DNA from: Nitrosarchaeum sp. | Lineage (GTDB): Archaea > Thermoproteota > Nitrososphaeria > Nitrososphaerales > Nitrosopumilaceae | NCBI GenBank assembly: GCA_023265135.1 | Contig: JAHFUM010000013.1 | Coordinates: forward strand, 1 to 32,881 | DNA length: 32,881 nucleotides | Reading direction: 5' to 3' | Part shown: piece by piece, positions 2,230-23,567 of the stretch | Layout: each line of letters begins with the position of its first letter | Position numbering within the stretch: position 1 is the stretch's first letter | The notes under the pieces: generated by a model | The model's database searches: none | Told to the model about the DNA's origin: nothing | Seen by the model: the letters and a program-made list of their open reading frames with translations, nothing else | Made by a program: the position numbers and the translations under genes

Positions 2230-3867
2230 ATGAAATATTTTATTTTTTTACTTGTTTGCTGTTCGGTTTTCTTACTGGCGATTAATCCAGTTTATGCCCA
2301 AAATTACCAAGATTCTGATCAAGACAATATCTCAGATAATGTGGATCAATGTCCTAATGAACCTGAAAATTATAATAATTATCAAGATGAGGATGGATGT
2401 CCTGATCAAATACAACAATCAAATCAGATAGTAGATTCTGATCAAGACAATATCCCAGACAATGTAGACCAATGTGTAAATGAACCTGAAAATTATAATA
2501 ATTATCAAGATGAGGATGGATGTCCTGATGAATTACCTGTAAAAGATTCAGACAATGATGGAATTTCAGATGATAACGATCAGTGTCCTTCACTAGCTGA
2601 AGTGTATAATGAAATAGACGACCAAGATGGATGTCCTGATGAATCATCACAACCTTCAGTGATGCAAGAAACTACAAGTGTTCCGTTATGGATAAAAAAC
2701 AATGCAAAATGGTGGGCTGAAGATACAATTTCAGAAAATGATTTTCTAAAAGGAATAGAATGGATGATTTCAAATGATGTCATTGCCATTGAAACCACAT
2801 CCACAGTTGATAATACAAAAATTTCAGAACCTGATAAACAAGTAGGGCAAACCGAATCAACTCCAAGTGTGCCTGACTGGATAAAAAAGAATGCTGGATG
2901 GTGGGCCTCGAATCTAATTACTGAGAAAGATTTTGTTGCTGGCTTGGAATATCTTGTAAAAGAGAAAATAATCCACGTGGGAACAACTGACGCTTTTTCC
3001 CCTTCGGAGATAACAGAAATACATGGTAAATGGACCGTTCTTGCAGCCAAAGGAAAGGAAATTGGGCAAGTTAACCATCCTGCAGCAATGCATGTGGATT
3101 CCTCAAACAATCTTTATGTAATTGATTCAGAAAACGATCGGCTCTTAAAATTTGCACCTGCTAAATCTGAATGGAGCAAAGTTCCAATCTCAAGAAGTGT
3201 GGAATATCTTAGAGATGTCAAATTAAATGGTAAGGGTGATTTATTTTTCCTTGGAAAAGGTTGGCTTGGTCAGTGTGATTCTTCAGGAATGTGTAAAGAA
3301 ATTAAGCATTGTTATAGATCAGAAGAAGATAGACATGACTATTTTTGTGGCATGACGGCATTTGTACTTGATTCTAAGGGAAATATCTTTTTCACTGACC
3401 GTGATTACCAGGAAGTTAACAAATATGATTTCAGTACAGAAAGAGAGGTAAATATCTGCAACGCAGCTAAATCTAAAGATGTAAACTGTATCAATGTAGC
3501 AGATATTGCAATAGATGCATCTGATAATATATTCATCTCTACTTCAGAATCTAAAATCTACAAATTTAATACAACAACTTTGAAATGGAGTTTGATTGCT
3601 GATGAAGGCAAGGAACTAGGACAAGTAAATAATCCTCACGGTCTTGACATAGACAAGTCCGGAAATCTGTATGTATTGGACGCGGGTAATGGGCGTATTC
3701 AGAAATTTATTAAAAATACCTCAAACTGGATGGAAATCAAATATACTGAAATTTACTTGAGTTCCTTTGAAGTTTGCCCTCATAACATATCGGTTGATTC
3801 TTCAGGATTTATTTATGTAAGCAATTTTTGTGAAAATGAAATACAAAAATTCACACCAAGTAAATGA
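2230..3867 (+). CDS. secreted modular protein: TSP3-like repeats, WW-type repeats, NHL propeller
   Basis: This is a 545-residue secreted protein. Residues 1-23 form a Sec signal peptide ending VYA-Q. Three 32-residue repeats follow (about 28-59, 69-100, 106-137), each with Asp-rich D-x-D-x-D and a closing DGCPD; these are thrombospondin-type-3/calcium-binding repeats. Two repeats of a second type follow (about 152-187 and 215-250) with the pattern P-x-WIK-x-NA-x-WW, then DF-x-x-G-x-x-x-x. From about 265 to the end are NHL-like beta-propeller blades (for example NHPAAMHVDSSNNLYVIDS and NNPHGLDIDKSGNLYVLDA). The propeller holds eight Cys, which fits disulfides outside the cell. No PEFG-type sorting tail or C-terminal membrane segment is present. 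The archaeosortase-like gene lies 370 bases downstream. Ca-dependent surface binding is an inference; the ligand is unknown. Confidence 0.85.
   Translation: MKYFIFLLVCCSVFLLAINPVYAQNYQDSDQDNISDNVDQCPNEPENYNNYQDEDGCPDQIQQSNQIVDSDQDNIPDNVDQCVNEPENYNNYQDEDGCPDELPVKDSDNDGISDDNDQCPSLAEVYNEIDDQDGCPDESSQPSVMQETTSVPLWIKNNAKWWAEDTISENDFLKGIEWMISNDVIAIETTSTVDNTKISEPDKQVGQTESTPSVPDWIKKNAGWWASNLITEKDFVAGLEYLVKEKIIHVGTTDAFSPSEITEIHGKWTVLAAKGKEIGQVNHPAAMHVDSSNNLYVIDSENDRLLKFAPAKSEWSKVPISRSVEYLRDVKLNGKGDLFFLGKGWLGQCDSSGMCKEIKHCYRSEEDRHDYFCGMTAFVLDSKGNIFFTDRDYQEVNKYDFSTEREVNICNAAKSKDVNCINVADIAIDASDNIFISTSESKIYKFNTTTLKWSLIADEGKELGQVNNPHGLDIDKSGNLYVLDAGNGRIQKFIKNTSNWMEIKYTEIYLSSFEVCPHNISVDSSGFIYVSNFCENEIQKFTPSK
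2311..2640 (+). repeat. three 96-bp in-frame coding repeats (TSP3-like)
   Basis: Three units of exactly 96 bases lie at 2311-2406, 2434-2529 and 2545-2640, separated by 27 and 15 bases. The last 51 bases of units 1 and 2 are identical (from AATGAACCTG to TGTCCTGAT), while unit 3 has diverged at DNA level but keeps the D-rich protein pattern. This points to a recent duplication or gene conversion between the first two units. They encode the calcium-binding repeats of the secreted protein. Confidence 0.9.
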
Positions 3868-8951: not shown

Positions 8952-9872
8952 ATGAAATACCTTGTTTTGCTACTAATTTTGATTGGTTTTTCAGGTTCCG
9001 CATTTGCCCAATACATGGGAAACACATCTGATGTTCAACCCGAAAAATCTTTTCCAATAGAAAAAAGAATCGGATCTATTCAAGCATTAGATGCCCCGTT
9101 TGAACTAAAATCTCAACAATATGTCGAGATTCCAGCAGAAAATCTCACAATAACATTCTTAAAAGTTGTTGAAGATTCTAGATGTCCAAGTGATGTTACA
9201 TGTGTTTGGGCAGGTAAGGCTGATTTAATATTTGACATATTAAAAAATCAAAGTAAAGAGATAACTTTGAGCACCTACACTAATAACACTCTAAATGTAT
9301 TTGATAAATACAAAATACAATTAATTGATGTAAAACCATATCCTACAAGTACGAAAACAATCAAACCAGAAGATTATGTTGCAATTTTAAAAATAACAAA
9401 GGATGATAAAATTCCAAATATGGAACATCCTGTTACCACAATACTCTCACCTCTTAAACAATTCAAGTCTGGAATTCCAATCGACAAAATACAATGCAAA
9501 GAATCTCTGATTCTTGTTACAAAATATGATAATTCCCCCGCATGTGTAAAATCAGAAACTAAAACTAAATTGATTGAACGTAATTGGGTAACCGTTGATC
9601 AAGTAAATGAAAGCGAAGCCATATCCCTCATAAAAAAACTGTATCCACAATTACAAGACTTTCCAAGTGATAACTTACCGCCAAAAGCAATTTACGTAGA
9701 AAAATCAAATGTGGGATGGTATGTAATTTTTGAAACCCAAGGTAGTGGAATACCAATTATTGCAGCAAAATGCTTTCTCGTAGATAATTTAAAAACAGTT
9801 ACTCAGATAGGTGAGTATAAACCTGAAATTGGAGAAATGAAAACAAATATCTCATTTAAAACATGCAAGTGA
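8952..9872 (+). CDS. secreted protein with RCPSDVxCVWAG motif and paired-Cys module
   Basis: A 306-residue exported protein. Residues 1-19 are a signal peptide (AFA-Q). Residues about 45-150 contain DSRCPSDVTCVWAGKADL (C78, C84), a motif recurring in bacterial and archaeal secreted proteins of unknown function with a probable disulfide. Residues 182-212 (C182, C198-V) form a second small module with pattern Cys, 15 residues, Cys-Val, then TKLIERNW; the same pattern occurs twice in the secreted protein encoded at 11030-12463. The C-terminal third (CFLVDNL) has two further Cys. There is no sorting tail or membrane anchor. TTTATGAA-like sequence around 8919-8926 lies at TATA distance from the ATG. 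Function unknown. Confidence 0.8.
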   Translation: MKYLVLLLILIGFSGSAFAQYMGNTSDVQPEKSFPIEKRIGSIQALDAPFELKSQQYVEIPAENLTITFLKVVEDSRCPSDVTCVWAGKADLIFDILKNQSKEITLSTYTNNTLNVFDKYKIQLIDVKPYPTSTKTIKPEDYVAILKITKDDKIPNMEHPVTTILSPLKQFKSGIPIDKIQCKESLILVTKYDNSPACVKSETKTKLIERNWVTVDQVNESEAISLIKKLYPQLQDFPSDNLPPKAIYVEKSNVGWYVIFETQGSGIPIIAAKCFLVDNLKTVTQIGEYKPEIGEMKTNISFKTCK

Positions 9873-10009
9873 TCTTATTGTGATTTTTCAAAGATTAAAT
9901 CTACCTTTTACTCATGTAATAATTTTGAAGTTTCTCATCACAAAGATATGATGAATATTTATGGGAAAATACTGGCATTTTTAATGTGTCACATCTTAGA
10001 GAATCATAA

Positions 10010-10912
10010 ATGAATCTGCAAAACACTAGAATCCTAGTTACTGGCGGGACTGGATTTATCGGCTCAAGGCTTGCACAAAAACTACTTGATTCTGGCGCTA
10101 ATGTCACAATTCTTACTAGAAAAATACAAAATTCTCCATTCAAAGTAATTATCGGTGATCTCACAAATCCTAATTTGCAATTTGATCAAAAATTTGACGT
10201 GGTGTGTCATTTGGCATCAGTAACCCCACTAGAAAAAAACAAGAAAATTCTTCATTCAGTAAATTATGATGGTGTAAGGAATCTTTTTTCTGCAGTATCT
10301 GGCGCAAAATTATTTGTCTACATCTCTGGTCTTGCTGTATTTGATTCTGCATGTGATTTGATTACAGAAGAATCTCTAAAAAAATCTGACACTGAATTTG
10401 TTAAAATAAAAATCAAAGCACAAGAATTTCTTGAAGAAAATTGTAAAAAGTCAGGGATGAATCTGGTTGTTGCGCATCTTGGTGATATTGTATATGGGAA
10501 TGGTGGATTTTTCAAATCAATTGTGTTTGATAGAATAAAAAATGGAACCTTTAGAATTCCAGGAGATGGCAAATACATCAAAAATTTTATCCATGTAGAT
10601 GATGTTACAGATGCATTGATTGCAATTATGCAAAAGGGAGAAAATGATACCTATATTCTGACTGACTCTGTACCTGTTTCATTTAGAGAATTTGTGAATT
10701 TTTTAGCCGATAACATTGGAGTAAAAAGACCTGGAACTGTTCCCGCATCTTTGGCAAAACTAGTTCTCGGTTCAGACGCAATCAATCTTTTGATGCGCTC
10801 AACTAGTGCATCAAATCAAAAAATTCGACAAATTTATGATTTTAAATTCACATCATACAAAGAAGGTTTGAATAATTTGATTCCTATCTTAAAAAACGAA
10901 AATGAACACTAG
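10010..10912 (+). CDS. extended SDR / NAD-dependent epimerase-like protein, catalytic residues lost
   Basis: The 300-residue product has an N-terminal Rossmann fold with TGGTGFIG (11-18), GDLTNP (49-54) and a helix containing NYDGVRNL, all typical of extended short-chain dehydrogenases that modify nucleotide sugars. At the active site, VYISGLAVFD (103-112) has Gly107 where the family has Ser/Thr, and FVKIK (130-134) has Phe130 where the catalytic Tyr of YxxxK should be; Lys134 is kept. The later NFIHVDDVTDALIAIM is the standard HVDDV segment. So cofactor and substrate folds look intact but redox/epimerase chemistry is doubtful; it may be an atypical SDR, a binding or regulatory protein, or use other chemistry. 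Stands alone between two unrelated genes. Confidence 0.85.
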   Translation: MNLQNTRILVTGGTGFIGSRLAQKLLDSGANVTILTRKIQNSPFKVIIGDLTNPNLQFDQKFDVVCHLASVTPLEKNKKILHSVNYDGVRNLFSAVSGAKLFVYISGLAVFDSACDLITEESLKKSDTEFVKIKIKAQEFLEENCKKSGMNLVVAHLGDIVYGNGGFFKSIVFDRIKNGTFRIPGDGKYIKNFIHVDDVTDALIAIMQKGENDTYILTDSVPVSFREFVNFLADNIGVKRPGTVPASLAKLVLGSDAINLLMRSTSASNQKIRQIYDFKFTSYKEGLNNLIPILKNENEH

Positions 10913-11029
10913 ATGATTAATAAAATTCATGTAAGAAATTAAAATTTTAAAGTGATTTTACCTAGTTTTAGAATGATATCAAACTTCTCAAGCATATGAC
11001 TTACACACATATTTTTTCAAGAACTTATT

Positions 11030-12463
11030 CTAGTCTTTCTTTACTGCTTCATATTTTGAGAGTTGATCATTCCAGATTACATTGACATATGGGTCAATCT
11101 CATACGAGTCAGCAAATTTCTTTAAATTTTCTTTGTATGAATCATCTAGAGATTTTAAATCTACTATCTTTTCTTTTAGAATATTCTCTTGAGTCAAGTC
11201 ATACTCTTTTCTTATTTGCATGATTTTTGCACTAAGTTCTTCCTTTGTCATGCCCGGACGCTCACTCTGATTCTTTATCGCGCTTTTCTCATCTGCTTTT
11301 GATTGAACCAATGCATCAGCATATTTCTTGTCATAGACATCTTTCAGCTCTGCCTGTTTTAACGCAAGTTCCTCGTCAAATTTTTCTAGTTTTTGGTTGA
11401 CTTCTAAAATTATTACTGCGGTATCCTTGTCTTGAATTTTATCTAAAATATATGATTGAGGATCATGGTGCTCTGCAATCCCTTGTGCAATCCATGAATC
11501 TGCAGTTTCTTGCAGTACACAAGAGTATTTTTCAGACTCTAAAACATACAGTACTGTAAATCCTTCATCGCATTTTGTCAACGGTGTTACAGAATTGGTA
11601 TTTGACTGCATATCCTGGTTTCCAGTTATTTCTCCCATTCCGTGACGTATCCACATCTCTGCAGTTGACATTGAAACGCAAACATAGTCATTTGCATGGA
11701 AACGATACACAACAACATATCCATTTCTGCATTCTGTATCTGGGGAAGTTTTTCCAAGATCATTCCATGATATTTTGTCATTAGGATTTGCTTGCAGGTA
11801 TGCAGGATTTGTTCTATAATCCTCATAGTATTTTCGCAGTTGCTCTCCCGTTATAGGAGTTTCAACAAACTGCCCTTCTTTGTTAAAGAGAATCTGTTGA
11901 TTGTAATATGCCAAGTTGTGATTTACATTAAAGATGCTATTTGCCTCAATTAGTTCTATTCGTTTTGTTTCTGCTGCAGTGTGATATGCTTGTCGTGCCT
12001 CACTAAGTGAACCACCGTTTGCTAAAACCATTTTGAGCGCTGTTCGTCCCGCATCTACTTTCATTTGATGAAATTCAAACTGATCCCAAAAAACTTCCTT
12101 TACCTGAGGTTGTGCAACTTTATCTACAAACCGTGAATAAGATTCCTTTGGAGAATAAAATTCCCAGAGCGTTTCCCATTCTTTAAGATCTTGATTTAGC
12201 TTCTCTAGTGCCTGTGCTCTTTTTGTTTCAAGTTCTTTTTTAGCTTCAAGTGCTTTGTAGTCTCTCTGTTCTAGTTCTTTGATCCACTTTTTTGTCTGCT
12301 CTATTTTTTTTAGAATGTCTTGTGCAACTGGATTGTTTGCAAGGTCCCCTGATAATGTAACCTGTTCACTTGTCTGAGAAGACTGAGCAAAGGATTGATT
12401 GACTGATATTGCTAATAAGACAAATACAAAAAGACATACGCCGATAACTCTATTCACAGACAA
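11030..12463 (-). CDS. secreted coiled-coil protein with two paired-Cys modules
   Basis: A 477-residue exported protein starting at a TTG (12461-12463). Residues 1-26 are a signal peptide (SFA-Q). Residues about 45-100 and 350-460 are Lys/Glu-rich with heptad-like spacing, probably coiled coils. Between them sit two copies of a module: Cys245 and Cys262, then Cys298 and Cys315. Both have 16 residues between the Cys, G at the third place after the first Cys, Val after the second Cys, and a helix with TAxxWIxxG. These probably form one disulfide each. The secreted protein encoded at 8952-9872 carries one similar module. No anchor or sorting tail. I recognise no named family; the role could be envelope structure or binding. 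Confidence 0.8.
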   Translation of the reverse strand: MSVNRVIGVCLFVFVLLAISVNQSFAQSSQTSEQVTLSGDLANNPVAQDILKKIEQTKKWIKELEQRDYKALEAKKELETKRAQALEKLNQDLKEWETLWEFYSPKESYSRFVDKVAQPQVKEVFWDQFEFHQMKVDAGRTALKMVLANGGSLSEARQAYHTAAETKRIELIEANSIFNVNHNLAYYNQQILFNKEGQFVETPITGEQLRKYYEDYRTNPAYLQANPNDKISWNDLGKTSPDTECRNGYVVVYRFHANDYVCVSMSTAEMWIRHGMGEITGNQDMQSNTNSVTPLTKCDEGFTVLYVLESEKYSCVLQETADSWIAQGIAEHHDPQSYILDKIQDKDTAVIILEVNQKLEKFDEELALKQAELKDVYDKKYADALVQSKADEKSAIKNQSERPGMTKEELSAKIMQIRKEYDLTQENILKEKIVDLKSLDDSYKENLKKFADSYEIDPYVNVIWNDQLSKYEAVKKD

Positions 12464-14145: not shown

Positions 14146-17100
14146 ATGTTATTGGTCCACATTAAAAAAGTAGAGATCTTTGGTTTCAAATCATTTGGAT
14201 TTAAAAATACCACTGTTCTGTTTGAGCCAGGTCTAGTTTCCATCTCTGGTCCAAACGGTTCTGGAAAGAGCAACATACTTGATGCGATAATTTTTGCCCT
14301 GGGCGAAAATAAACCCAAAATGATGAGAGTTGATAAACTCAGATCGTTGCTACACGATATAGAAGGCAATAGACATGGACCTAAAATTGCAAGATCTAGT
14401 GTTCATTTTGATAATTCTGATCGAAAGATCCCTGTAGATTCCGATGTTGTAGAAATTACAAGGGAAATGGATGATAAAGGTGAAAACTCTTACTATCTGA
14501 ACAAAAAACCTACAAACCGAAGTCAAATCTTGGATCTTCTTGATGTTGCAAATGCTGGATTGGGACAACTAAATGCTGTACAGCAAGGAACCGTAACAAG
14601 AATATCTGAATTCACATCAGAAGAAAAAAGAAAAACAATTGAAGATTTAATTGGATTATCCTACTTTGATGAGAAAAAAACTGAGGCAATCAAACAACTA
14701 GATGATGCTGACAGGAGATTAGAAATTGCTCTTGCAAAGATGGGCGAAATTAAAAAAAGAATTGATGAGCTTGAAGAGGAACGAAATCAAAAACTTCGTC
14801 ATGATATACTTGAACGAGAACTAACTCGATACAAGGCAATTTCAACATATAACAAGCTAAGAGCAATAACAAGTCAGAAATCTTCAAAGGAAGACACATT
14901 TAACAAAATTACATATGACATCAAAAAATTTGATGATGAGAGAATCATAATTAGAAACGATATTGCCAGGCTCGAAAATGAAAAATCACAATTAATGAAG
15001 GCTGCCACTGACTATACTCAGGCAAAAACCGCTATTGACTTTGAGCTAAGTTCTGCAATGCACCAATATGAGACAGACAACAGTGCAATTGTTGCATCCA
15101 GCAAAAGATTACAACAAATTGATTTAAGAATTCCTGAAATTAAAATTGAAATTGAATCAATTGATCTAGACAGAGTTGAAATCGAATCTCATATCTTGAA
15201 ATCCCAGGAATTAATAAATGAAACAAACATAAAAAAGAAAAAAATTAATGATGATTTGGAAATACTTGATTCTGAAAGAAATAAAATTCTGACAGAGCAA
15301 TCAGTAGCCGCATCTAAAAAATCTGAAATTGACAATAAACTAAAATTGCTTTCTGACCAACTCAATGACACAAAACTAAAACTATCTAAAGTTGAAAACG
15401 AAAAAGATGAATCTCAAATAAAAATCAAATCCAATTCTGATAGACTGTCTGATCTGGAACAAGACACCATTGCATTATCTACTTTGAAATCAAGATTGGA
15501 ATCTCTGATAAATAATCACAATGCATCCATCTCCGAATTAAAATCTAGGATCTCTAAACTTAATTCAAAAAAATCTAAAACATTAAATGATTTAGAAGAT
15601 CTTGAACTGATTTTAGACAAATCCAGCAAAGCTGCAGCACAATATGATACAAAAATCAAAACTGTAAAGGGAATAATGCATGAAGATTACACTGTTGCTA
15701 AATTAAAAGAAGATGCAGAAAAGCTTGGCATTGAAGGATTAGTCTATGAAATGATATCTTGGGACAAACAATATGAGCGCTCAATACTTGCTGTAAGCTC
15801 TGATTGGATTAAGGCAATTGTGGTTCCGGACTTTGCAACATTACTTGGCATTGCAGAAGTTGCACGTTCAAAAAATCTTCCAAAATTAAAAATAATCCCA
15901 CTTGATGCAATTCCAAAATTCAAATTAGATCTTCCAAAGGAACCAGGTGTAATAGGTGTCCTATCTGACTATGTCAGGTGCAATCCTTCCCACTATTCTC
16001 TTAAAACATTTCTTTTTGGAAATGTTGTTCTTGCTGACTCTAGGGATTCGGCATACCGCATCTCAAAATTAGGTCACAAGGCAGTGACTTTGGATGGCGA
16101 GTATTTTGAGGCTAAAGGTGGGGCTGTTATAATCGATATAAACTCAAAAATTTCAAAATTAACTAAAATTATCTCCATGAGTGCCGATATTGACGGATTG
16201 CTTGAATCAATCAATCTGCTCAAAAAATACGTCTTAAAGAAAAAACACTCCCTAAAGAAACTAGATGATTCCATTCAGAGCTATTCTGGAAGGTTGTCTC
16301 TTTCAGAGCAGAGTCTTGCATCAGCTGATGAGAATTATTCTAATTTGAAATCAAGAATTTCATCTGCAATCAATACAAAACAGCAACTCACTACAAGAAT
16401 TTCTGGGTTGAATAAAAGAAATTCCAATTTGCTTGTAGAAATTGCTTCACATGAATCTCACATTGAATCACTTGTTGCAAGAATTACCATTGTTGAAGAA
16501 AACTATGCCAGCGGAGAACAAACACGTATTGCAAATGAACTATCAAGAGTAAATACAAAAAAGTCTGAACTTGAAAATTTTTACACCACAATCATGAATG
16601 AGTATCGTGATAGAGATTCACAATTAACTACATTGCAGACTGAAGACGGCAGAAAAAAATCTCAAATTAAAAGTCTCTATGATGAAGAATCTTCATTACA
16701 CTCACAATATCAGGAATTAGAACACAAGATTAAAGAATTGGAGATAAAAAAAGAATCAAAAACTGCAATTCTTGTAAAATTAAGAGAGAAAGAACAAGAA
16801 CTAATTTCTACATCCGGTTCATCCATCGGACAGCTAAAAGAATACGATGATAAATTAAAAATTCTTTCTGAAAAAGACAAAGAATTAACAAAGGAAATCA
16901 ATTCTTTGGAAAGACAGTCTGATTCTTTGACTCGTGATTTACGTGATTTAATTGAAAATGAAACAAAACTACACAATCTACTCACATCATTTGGATTCAA
17001 CAAAAATATGGAAACCTTTGATGTTGACTCTATAGTGCAGGGATTGACTACTGAATTAAATTCTCTTAATGCCCTTAATGCAAAAGCCCCTGAGACATAT

Positions 17101-17676
17101 CTTGAAGTATCATACGGGTATCGTTCTATGTCTGTGCGTAAAAACTCACTAGAAGAGGAACGAAACTCTATTGTGAAATTCATTGAAGACATTGAAAAAG
17201 ATAAACGCCAAACATTCTTGGACGCATTTGATAAAGTAGACAAGGAAATACGTCTTATTTTTAGTAAAATGACTGGAGGCAATGCCTGGCTTGAATTGCA
17301 AAACGAAGACGATATCTTTAATTCTGGAATTTCTTATATGATTCAATTTCCAAATAAACCAAAAAGAGAATCCACCTCAATCAGTGGTGGTGAAAAAACT
17401 CTAGCTGCTATAGTTTTTGTATTGGCACTTCAGAAATTAAAGCCATCTCCTTTCTATCTCTTTGATGAGGTCGATGCACATCTTGATGCACCAAACTCTG
17501 AAAAACTTGCAAAAATTTTGGAGGAACGTTCTCACGAGAGTCAATTTATAATGGTTTCTCTAAAAGACTCTGTCGTGCAAAAAGCCAAACTCATCTATGG
17601 TGTCTATCCAAAAAACGGTGTATCTTATGTTGTCACATACAAAGACAAACGAATGCCTTCTCTTAAGACATCCTAG
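14146..17676 (+). CDS. smc: chromosome segregation protein SMC
   Basis: A full-length 1176-residue SMC ATPase, which entraps DNA and organises the chromosome. The N-terminal head has Walker A GPNGSGKSN (35-43); long coiled coils (about 170-500 and 690-1010) flank the hinge, seen around DAEKLGIEGLVYEMISWDKQ to the conserved KGGAVIIDI. The C-terminal head has the signature SISGGEKT from about 1078 and Walker B FYLFDEVDA from about 1103, followed by the D-loop HLDAPN. All ATPase motifs are intact. ATG at 14146 was chosen; translation begins close to the conserved IKKVEIFGFKSF strand. ScpA/ScpB kleisin genes are not adjacent here. Its stop overlaps the convergent ABC ATPase gene by four bases (CTAG). 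Confidence 0.97.
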   Translation: MLLVHIKKVEIFGFKSFGFKNTTVLFEPGLVSISGPNGSGKSNILDAIIFALGENKPKMMRVDKLRSLLHDIEGNRHGPKIARSSVHFDNSDRKIPVDSDVVEITREMDDKGENSYYLNKKPTNRSQILDLLDVANAGLGQLNAVQQGTVTRISEFTSEEKRKTIEDLIGLSYFDEKKTEAIKQLDDADRRLEIALAKMGEIKKRIDELEEERNQKLRHDILERELTRYKAISTYNKLRAITSQKSSKEDTFNKITYDIKKFDDERIIIRNDIARLENEKSQLMKAATDYTQAKTAIDFELSSAMHQYETDNSAIVASSKRLQQIDLRIPEIKIEIESIDLDRVEIESHILKSQELINETNIKKKKINDDLEILDSERNKILTEQSVAASKKSEIDNKLKLLSDQLNDTKLKLSKVENEKDESQIKIKSNSDRLSDLEQDTIALSTLKSRLESLINNHNASISELKSRISKLNSKKSKTLNDLEDLELILDKSSKAAAQYDTKIKTVKGIMHEDYTVAKLKEDAEKLGIEGLVYEMISWDKQYERSILAVSSDWIKAIVVPDFATLLGIAEVARSKNLPKLKIIPLDAIPKFKLDLPKEPGVIGVLSDYVRCNPSHYSLKTFLFGNVVLADSRDSAYRISKLGHKAVTLDGEYFEAKGGAVIIDINSKISKLTKIISMSADIDGLLESINLLKKYVLKKKHSLKKLDDSIQSYSGRLSLSEQSLASADENYSNLKSRISSAINTKQQLTTRISGLNKRNSNLLVEIASHESHIESLVARITIVEENYASGEQTRIANELSRVNTKKSELENFYTTIMNEYRDRDSQLTTLQTEDGRKKSQIKSLYDEESSLHSQYQELEHKIKELEIKKESKTAILVKLREKEQELISTSGSSIGQLKEYDDKLKILSEKDKELTKEINSLERQSDSLTRDLRDLIENETKLHNLLTSFGFNKNMETFDVDSIVQGLTTELNSLNALNAKAPETYLEVSYGYRSMSVRKNSLEEERNSIVKFIEDIEKDKRQTFLDAFDKVDKEIRLIFSKMTGGNAWLELQNEDDIFNSGISYMIQFPNKPKRESTSISGGEKTLAAIVFVLALQKLKPSPFYLFDEVDAHLDAPNSEKLAKILEERSHESQFIMVSLKDSVVQKAKLIYGVYPKNGVSYVVTYKDKRMPSLKTS

Positions 17677-21965: not shown

Positions 21966-23567
21966 ATGACTCAATTTAACGAGACAAAAAATAATCTTAA
22001 ACTTGATTTTAGGAAAATGGCATCTGTTAGTACTATTGTTTTATTTGCTATTTTGACTGTATCTATAATTAGCATTTCTAATCAAAAAGCATTTGCATCT
22101 GGAGGATTCTCTGGAGACTTTGATCCAGCAAACTGGACTTTTTCCACAGAGGGCAATGGTTTTGTTGATACTGATGGTGCTCCTGATTTTATTGAGCTTG
22201 ATGGAAGTGATGATAGTGAATGTGGTGAGTGTGCTCTAAATACAGATTATACAATTGAAATTCCTAGTACCAGTACAATAACTTTTGATTGGGATTATAC
22301 TACACATGATTGTGATGGCCCATCTTTTGATCCTGCTGGTTATTTACTCAATGGCGATTTTTTCCAATTTACTAATGATGATGGCTCAAATTCTCAATCT
22401 GGACATATAGAAGTCCCAGTAAACTCTGGCGATATTTTTGGTTTTCGAGTATTTACTACAGATGATACTTGTGGGCGTGGTGTAATTACATCTATTTCTA
22501 ATTTCAATGGACCTACTTCATCTCATAGAAATGGTTCTTGTGATGACTGTACTGCTCCAACACTAGGCTATGACAGCATGGGCAGAAAACTAGTAGACGG
22601 TGGATTTACATACAATGGCAAAGTCACTGATGCAAATTATTACTATACTCCATATCCATTAATCAATGCAACAATAGGAGAAGAAAATGTTGCTGAATTA
22701 AAAATATTTGATGAATCTGGGTATAAGCAAATCAGACACGTAGAGTTGGCATTTGGATTAAGAACAGGAGAGGTCATGAGTGAGAGCAAAGCTTCAATTA
22801 TTTATGATATCGACTCTGAAGGAAATGGTGTTGTAACCCAGACAGATCCTGAAAATGCAATTGACGATGATACTCTTAGAGTAACACACCAAGCAGCAAA
22901 GTGTACCCCATCATCTGTTGATGATGATTGCTTACTAGTAAAAATATATCACACATTTAGAGCTCCATTAGATTATGACATTGTAGGAACTGTTGCTACA
23001 GATGAGCAGCGAAATTCATGGCAGAATTATTTTAATCATGGAATTCACATAATTGGCGATTCAATGAATCCTGTAAAGGAATACGCTGGAATCAATGACG
23101 GTGTAATTTACCACCTTATTCAAACAGATAAAACCAACGCAGTTGACGATCTTGGAAATTCATGGTCATTTAATTATGGTGTGTGGAATAAAGACTACAT
23201 TCCAGTGATAAGAGACGCTCCTTCAAATATCAACGAGAAAAAAATTGAGGCAATAAACAAACTATCTACAATGACTCCTCAAGAGATATCTGATTTATTT
23301 GGCTATGATAGAAATCATGTCAATTTTGTAGAGGTCAAAGACAATCAATTGCTAGTTGCCAAGTCAGTGATGGACAAGTTATGTCCCGATTGTACTGCAA
23401 AACCATACAGCGAAATAAGCAATACCTTTTACTATGAAATTCCAGAGTTTGGAAAAAGATCAGCAGAATCTGGATTAGATGAGAAAGCACAACACGAAGC
23501 AGACTTGGCATTTGAATCCCTGACTGCAATGTATGAGAAAATATATCATCACGATATCCACAACTAG
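21966..23567 (+). CDS. secreted beta-sandwich protein, Cys-rich
   Basis: A 533-residue protein with a cytosolic lead of 18 residues, a hydrophobic stretch (about 19-40) and likely cleavage after AFA (44). Residues about 46-180 (DPANWTFSTEGNG, APDFIELDGSDD, FDWDYTTHDCDGP, GYLLNGDFFQ and SNSQSGHIEV) resemble a beta-sandwich domain known from bacterial secreted proteins that often end in PEP-CTERM tails. The remainder (about 200-533) is unrecognised. About a dozen Cys occur, several in CxxC pairs (ECGEC, SCDDC, LCPDC). There is no C-terminal sorting tail or anchor here. A shorter start at ATG 22017 would give MASVSTIVLF. The domain may have come from bacteria by transfer, but base composition matches its neighbours. 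Confidence 0.8.
   Translation: MTQFNETKNNLKLDFRKMASVSTIVLFAILTVSIISISNQKAFASGGFSGDFDPANWTFSTEGNGFVDTDGAPDFIELDGSDDSECGECALNTDYTIEIPSTSTITFDWDYTTHDCDGPSFDPAGYLLNGDFFQFTNDDGSNSQSGHIEVPVNSGDIFGFRVFTTDDTCGRGVITSISNFNGPTSSHRNGSCDDCTAPTLGYDSMGRKLVDGGFTYNGKVTDANYYYTPYPLINATIGEENVAELKIFDESGYKQIRHVELAFGLRTGEVMSESKASIIYDIDSEGNGVVTQTDPENAIDDDTLRVTHQAAKCTPSSVDDDCLLVKIYHTFRAPLDYDIVGTVATDEQRNSWQNYFNHGIHIIGDSMNPVKEYAGINDGVIYHLIQTDKTNAVDDLGNSWSFNYGVWNKDYIPVIRDAPSNINEKKIEAINKLSTMTPQEISDLFGYDRNHVNFVEVKDNQLLVAKSVMDKLCPDCTAKPYSEISNTFYYEIPEFGKRSAESGLDEKAQHEADLAFESLTAMYEKIYHHDIHN

Follow-up and report, generated by a model that had tools for sequence, protein, structure and literature searches.

What does a small two-cysteine module do when it turns up in two secreted proteins that otherwise have little in common? 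The question is raised by two genes within a 32,881-nucleotide stretch of DNA (the window, meaning the whole stretch analysed), for which the original prediction proposed that both products carry the same paired-cysteine unit and that this unit may be an exported, shuffled and lineage-specific one. The module is catalogued in NCBIfam as WING-49 (NF058652). The archaeal family in which it is concentrated, the Nitrosopumilaceae, ranks among the most abundant archaea and drives nitrification, and its members have a surface formed of an S-layer with no peptidoglycan. The window comes from a Nitrosarchaeum-like genome: the SMC-like protein encoded at 14146-17676 shows 88-89% identity with its counterparts from two Nitrosarchaeum assemblies, whilst the value falls to 74-77% for Nitrosopumilus, to 61% for Nitrosotenuis and to 56% for Nitrosotalea.

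Both open reading frames lie exactly where they had been predicted, and the cysteines had been numbered correctly (Table 1). The all-beta domain of protein 1 has no match in Pfam, and it is also present without WING-49 at locus L152:4914-5417. The region that follows the module in protein 1 was judged PepSY-like by eye only. Relatives of protein 2, about 480 amino acids long and with two tandem short copies of the module, occur in 13 other genomes and form a conserved family with it; protein 2 is probably a structural envelope protein. In six of these 13 genomes, which are related and not independent, a long-form host is encoded within about 6 kb of the protein 2 relative, as is also the case in the window. 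Elsewhere in the window, the exported proteins encoded at 21966-23567 and 2230-3867 have no WING-49 yet share regions with WING-49 hosts, namely L040:4219-6135 (E=2e-42) and L119:2483-4156 (E=2e-12).

Table 1. Coordinates in the window of the two proteins and of their features.
Feature	Position	Strand	Basis
Protein 1 (306 aa), with a signal peptide, a beta-rich domain containing RCPSDVTCVWAG, the long WING-49 and a mixed domain at the C-terminus	8952..9872	+	
Cleavable-looking signal peptide of protein 1, MKYLVLLLILIGFSGSAFA	8952..9008	+	from sequence
All-beta domain with RCPSDVTCVWAG, residues 39-150 of protein 1	9066..9401	+	AlphaFold
Long-form WING-49 of protein 1, residues 167-214, C182 and C198	9450..9593	+	WING-49 profile, AlphaFold
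Helix plus four strands, residues 220-289, C-terminal in protein 1	9609..9818	+	AlphaFold
Protein 2 (477 aa), with a signal peptide and two tandem short-form WING-49 between helical/coiled-coil-like flanks	11030..12463	-	
Signal peptide of protein 2, MSVNRVIGVCLFVFVLLAISVNQSFA, TTG start	12386..12463	-	from sequence
Short-form WING-49 copy 1, residues 240-282, C245 and C262	11618..11746	-	profile, AlphaFold
Short-form WING-49 copy 2, residues 293-335, C298 and C315	11459..11587	-	profile, AlphaFold

Against the WING-49 model, protein 1 scores 77.4 bits (E=6.5e-22) and protein 2, over two stretches, 33.8 bits (E=2.7e-8), both of which are above the curated cut-off of 22 bits. Scored copy by copy, the module gives 80.6 bits at 9450-9590, 24.7 bits at 11633-11740 and 16.4 bits at 11474-11575, the last of these, copy 2 of protein 2, falling under the cut-off when taken singly. 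Protein 1 covers positions 1-48 of the 49-position domain, whereas the copies of protein 2 cover only positions 13-48 and 15-48 and hence represent a shorter variant. When long and short copies are compared profile against profile they match over 37 columns with a probability of 95.5 and E=1.4e-8. Moreover, a profile made from long copies only scores 15.8 bits on protein 2, whereas 2000 shuffled versions of the protein reach 7.5 bits at most. The E-values, the profile comparison and the shuffles together exclude chance similarity as the source of the likeness, and the three copies in the window are, as judged from these alignments, homologous versions of one module, just as had been proposed. 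A known Pfam family was also considered and rejected, as neither the window proteins nor the host sets gave a Pfam match to the module.

The long form follows the consensus PLKQFKSGI, a short gap, D-V/I-x-C, x(3), L-x-L-V-I-K, a loop, P-A-C-V-K-P-x-T, x(3) and L-I-E-R-G-W. Both cysteines are retained in 187 of 187 long copies; the closing helix keeps its L in 97%, its G in 88% and its W in 96%, and polar positions including Q8, K29 and R49 are 82-99% conserved. The N-terminal PLKQFKSGI part, conserved in the long form and present in protein 1, is missing from both copies of protein 2. The single plan that had been suggested for all three copies thus holds for a shared core, whilst protein 2 represents a short, acidic and tandem form. 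This short form has no N-terminal helix, places its W inside the remaining helix and retains the closing G. The two forms also differ in number, with the long form (about 49 amino acids) occurring as exactly one copy in each of 189 out of 189 proteins and the short form occurring twice in 17 of 25. They differ in charge too, the mean net charge being +2.05 for long copies and -2.9 for short ones. The long form is basic and the rest of its host acidic (+0.043 and -0.039 per residue; p=6e-23), although about 23% of long copies have no net positive charge.

AlphaFold models place the three copies of the window on a common strand-strand-helix core with the cysteines in equivalent places, rather than on unrelated folds. 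The model of protein 1, made with an alignment, has a helix at 167-172, strands at 186-191 and 196-200 and a helix at 201-209, with a pLDDT of about 83-94 over the domain. The two copies of protein 2 are each predicted as strand, strand and helix with a pLDDT of about 82-92; copy 1 was modelled with aligned rows and copy 2 without any, and the latter model therefore cannot have been steered by the long form. In all three models the first cysteine lies four residues ahead of strand 1 and the second within strand 2. Because of these equivalent places, and because both cysteines are kept in every long copy, it is likely that the two are bonded as a disulphide, by which a small hairpin-helix would be locked. 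Foldseek returned no structure match to a solved structure or known fold at E<=1e-3, and no sequence relative was found in the PDB. The tandem short form gave weak but recurrent Foldseek matches to C6, C7 and follistatin, which were not significant (E 0.19-6), and the FOLN model of Pfam gave no match in 20 members at E<=10.

The distribution of the module is narrow. A sample of 398 genomes from the phylum contained WING-49 in 59, of which 58 belong to a single family; the lineage-specificity that had been foreseen is borne out. The named loci come from Nitrosotalea, Nitrosotenuis, Nitrosarchaeum and Nitrosopumilus, all Nitrosopumilaceae, and two sister families have a single match in one genome each, such that the module is almost confined to the Nitrosopumilaceae. 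The number of copies per genome ranges from 0 to 25, mostly from 1 to 25, with 18 above the cut-off in the window genome. Larger genomes tend to have more copies (Spearman 0.60 across 62 genomes of the family, calculated from rounded genome sizes and with copy counts entered as 16 at most). Several Nitrosopumilaceae genomes have no copy at all and hence the module is not a general requirement. Four genomes (G003, G013, G053 and G132) have 7-11 long copies and no short one, and the idea that the short form is an obligatory partner of the long form is consequently not supported. Carriage by viruses or plasmids was discarded, as no copy was found in the viral contigs, phages and plasmids searched. 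An apparent case of horizontal spread to Alphaproteobacteria (L048, in the metagenome-assembled genome OFTM68) was attributed to a mis-binned contig, since this has 34% GC and matches a Nitrosopumilus contig with 95% identity along 212 bp.

The proteins that host the module are diverse. Within the window genome the partners are a serpin, a dienelactone hydrolase (DLH), a Hint domain, a YVTN propeller and an alkyl-sulfatase-type metallo-beta-lactamase (MBL), and a further host reads as an HExxH peptidase by its sequence. The 103 complete hosts from named loci add MG2, a virginiamycin-B-lyase-type propeller, ice-binding, GSDH, NHL and cupredoxin families to DLH and serpin; each family is represented by only 1-4 proteins, and most of the 103 have no Pfam match. 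In the serpin, DLH, MBL and beta-propeller hosts the module sits outside the catalytic domain. A signal-peptide-like N-terminus is found in 102 of 108 complete hosts, in agreement with the predicted export. A single long WING-49 has been spliced into unrelated exported proteins. The serpin of the window genome (PF00079, E=4.9e-119) was noted at G000:C15:145862-146005 (L013), and serpin-like proteins also occur in Nitrosotalea loci. Nitrosotenuis chungbukensis has been reported as the sole non-host-associated ammonia-oxidising archaeon with a serpin (PMC6790972), with which the serpin of this Nitrosarchaeum-like genome contrasts.

Unrelated exported proteins repeatedly carry near-identical signal-peptide starts (MKTLHLSIIAI, MKTRLLIIIG and MKYLVLLLILIGF), whether or not they also have WING-49, at named loci L040-L119 and L150-L162 (for example L047, L079, L083, L071 and L156) and at window position 8952. 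These starts resemble a 5' cassette common to clustered genes for exported proteins. The possibility that WING-49 hosts have a signal peptide peculiar to them was rejected, as N-termini of the MKTLHLSII type are also found on neighbours that lack the module.

The position of the module within its hosts bears on two other explanations. Among the 108 complete hosts it is flanked on either side by at least 80 residues in 67, starts within the first 80 residues in 20 and ends within 15 residues of the C-terminus in 15. WING-49 may be a passive unit without a partner, either a disulphide-stapled linker or an element for folding or stability placed between exported domains, and both its usual place between two sizeable regions and its small size and invariant cysteines fit such a role. 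The copies near either terminus do not, and a spacer would have no obvious need of the conserved Q8, K29 and R49; this explanation is considered unlikely. Alternatively, a single copy in exported proteins of one lineage could serve as a signal by which its hosts are recognised for export, sorted or proteolytically processed, analogous to a lineage-specific sorting tag. Known sorting tags occupy a fixed terminus, which WING-49 does not, and no transmembrane tail is associated with it, only four of the 108 hosts having any later transmembrane segment. Such a signal is thus very improbable.

The comparison of hosts with homologues that lack the module gives a hint of function. All collected proteins were compared with each other after masking signal peptides and WING-49, and a shared region of at least 80 residues was required; 122 hosts matched 85 module-less proteins in this way, from which it follows that members of one family have acquired or lost the module. 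Together with the unrelated partner domains, this supports the idea of a shuffled module. By the author's own simple rule for signal-peptide classes, fixed after many sequences had been seen and with no held-out set, the ratio of cleavable-looking to anchor-like N-termini was 66:11 with WING-49 and 21:27 in the homologues without it (Fisher p=1e-6). One-to-one pairing gave 16 pairs that were cleavable with the module and anchored without it against one of the reverse type (p=2.7e-4). The effect persists when length is included as a covariate (logit 1.95, 95% interval 1.36-2.62) and appears in both halves of the data, with odds ratios of 8.8 for Nitrosotalea-side loci and 9.3 for the other genera. 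Permutation within homology clusters gave p=2e-4, with only nine clusters being informative. The clearest pair, serpin-like from a reading of its sequence, shares 369 residues at 55% identity; the member with the module, L042:1739-3823, has a cleavable signal, whilst the module-less L047:4783-7353 keeps an uncleaved helix. Computation thus shows that hosts have cleavable-looking signals where their module-less homologues often keep an uncleaved N-terminal helix. A passive linker would leave this exchange of anchors without explanation.

Taken together, the single copy, the addition outside catalytic domains, the anchor exchange and the basic charge on acidic hosts suggest that WING-49 is an exported, disulphide-locked two-cysteine domain whose long form acts as an envelope docking module in place of an anchor, a reading that is favoured tentatively and held at somewhat less than even confidence. 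The long form would hold exported proteins, once their signal peptides have been cleaved, at the envelope instead of a membrane anchor, and its target could be the acidic S-layer, S-layer glycans or acidic lipids beneath. The S-layer of N. maritimus is indeed strongly acidic (PMC11153153). Charge alone cannot be the whole mechanism, since about 23% of long copies carry no net positive charge and the short copies are acidic. Structure searches gave no match in support of a binding fold. The short tandem form of protein 2 misfits simple electrostatics and may be a diverged version with another partner. An extension of the docking proposal, in which basic long copies dock their hosts and tandem acidic short/coiled-coil proteins such as 11030-12463 serve as scaffolds or partners where present, forming a lineage-specific surface display, is quite improbable.

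The correlation with cleavable signals could equally be compatible with a module that marks proteins for release. WING-49 might then be a CBM-like unit that binds a ligand or substrate (a glycan, a peptide or the surface of other cells) on released proteins, as the cleavable signals, the lack of any other anchor and partners that include hydrolases, inhibitors and propellers would allow. The enzymology of the hosts is too diverse for one substrate, however, and substrate-binding modules often repeat whereas the long form is present once per protein. Binding on released proteins is therefore regarded as distinctly unlikely. The preferred role, retention at the surface, is made testable by the anchor exchange. 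If retention is correct, one module of 49 residues, present in as many as two dozen exported proteins of a genome, would provide a handle on the surface proteome and a testable tag; should it fail, WING-49 still defines a major element common to the exported proteins of the Nitrosopumilaceae.

With respect to what is already known, the copies in the window and NF058652 are the same domain, and the catalogue entry provides a name without a function. The original description of a module with no clear named function is accordingly right about function and is amended only in that a name exists; a full-text search for that name gave no paper. The split into two forms, their difference in charge, the single-copy rule, the anchor exchange and the proposed function are new. 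Amongst structural comparisons, the follistatin/factor-I-like hairpins (FOLN and FIM) resemble the tandem short form as small disulphide-bound hairpins, a weak Foldseek lead only, and differ in having more cysteines and in their lineage. If the docking proposal is right, WING-49 would resemble the bacterial S-layer-homology (SLH) and cell-wall-binding modules in that one module holds many unrelated exported proteins at the envelope. It differs from them in being a single 49-residue copy with one cysteine pair, on an archaeal S-layer with no peptidoglycan, and no SLH or other wall-binding model of Pfam or NCBIfam matches it. A parallel in function is offered by NmPin of N. maritimus, in which a lysine patch holds the protein on the outer face of the membrane without an anchor (PMC4922055). 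Whilst that patch lies on a parvulin fold and not on a separate module, in NmPin, as is proposed for WING-49, a basic surface replaces a transmembrane or lipid anchor on the outside of the thaumarchaeal cell.
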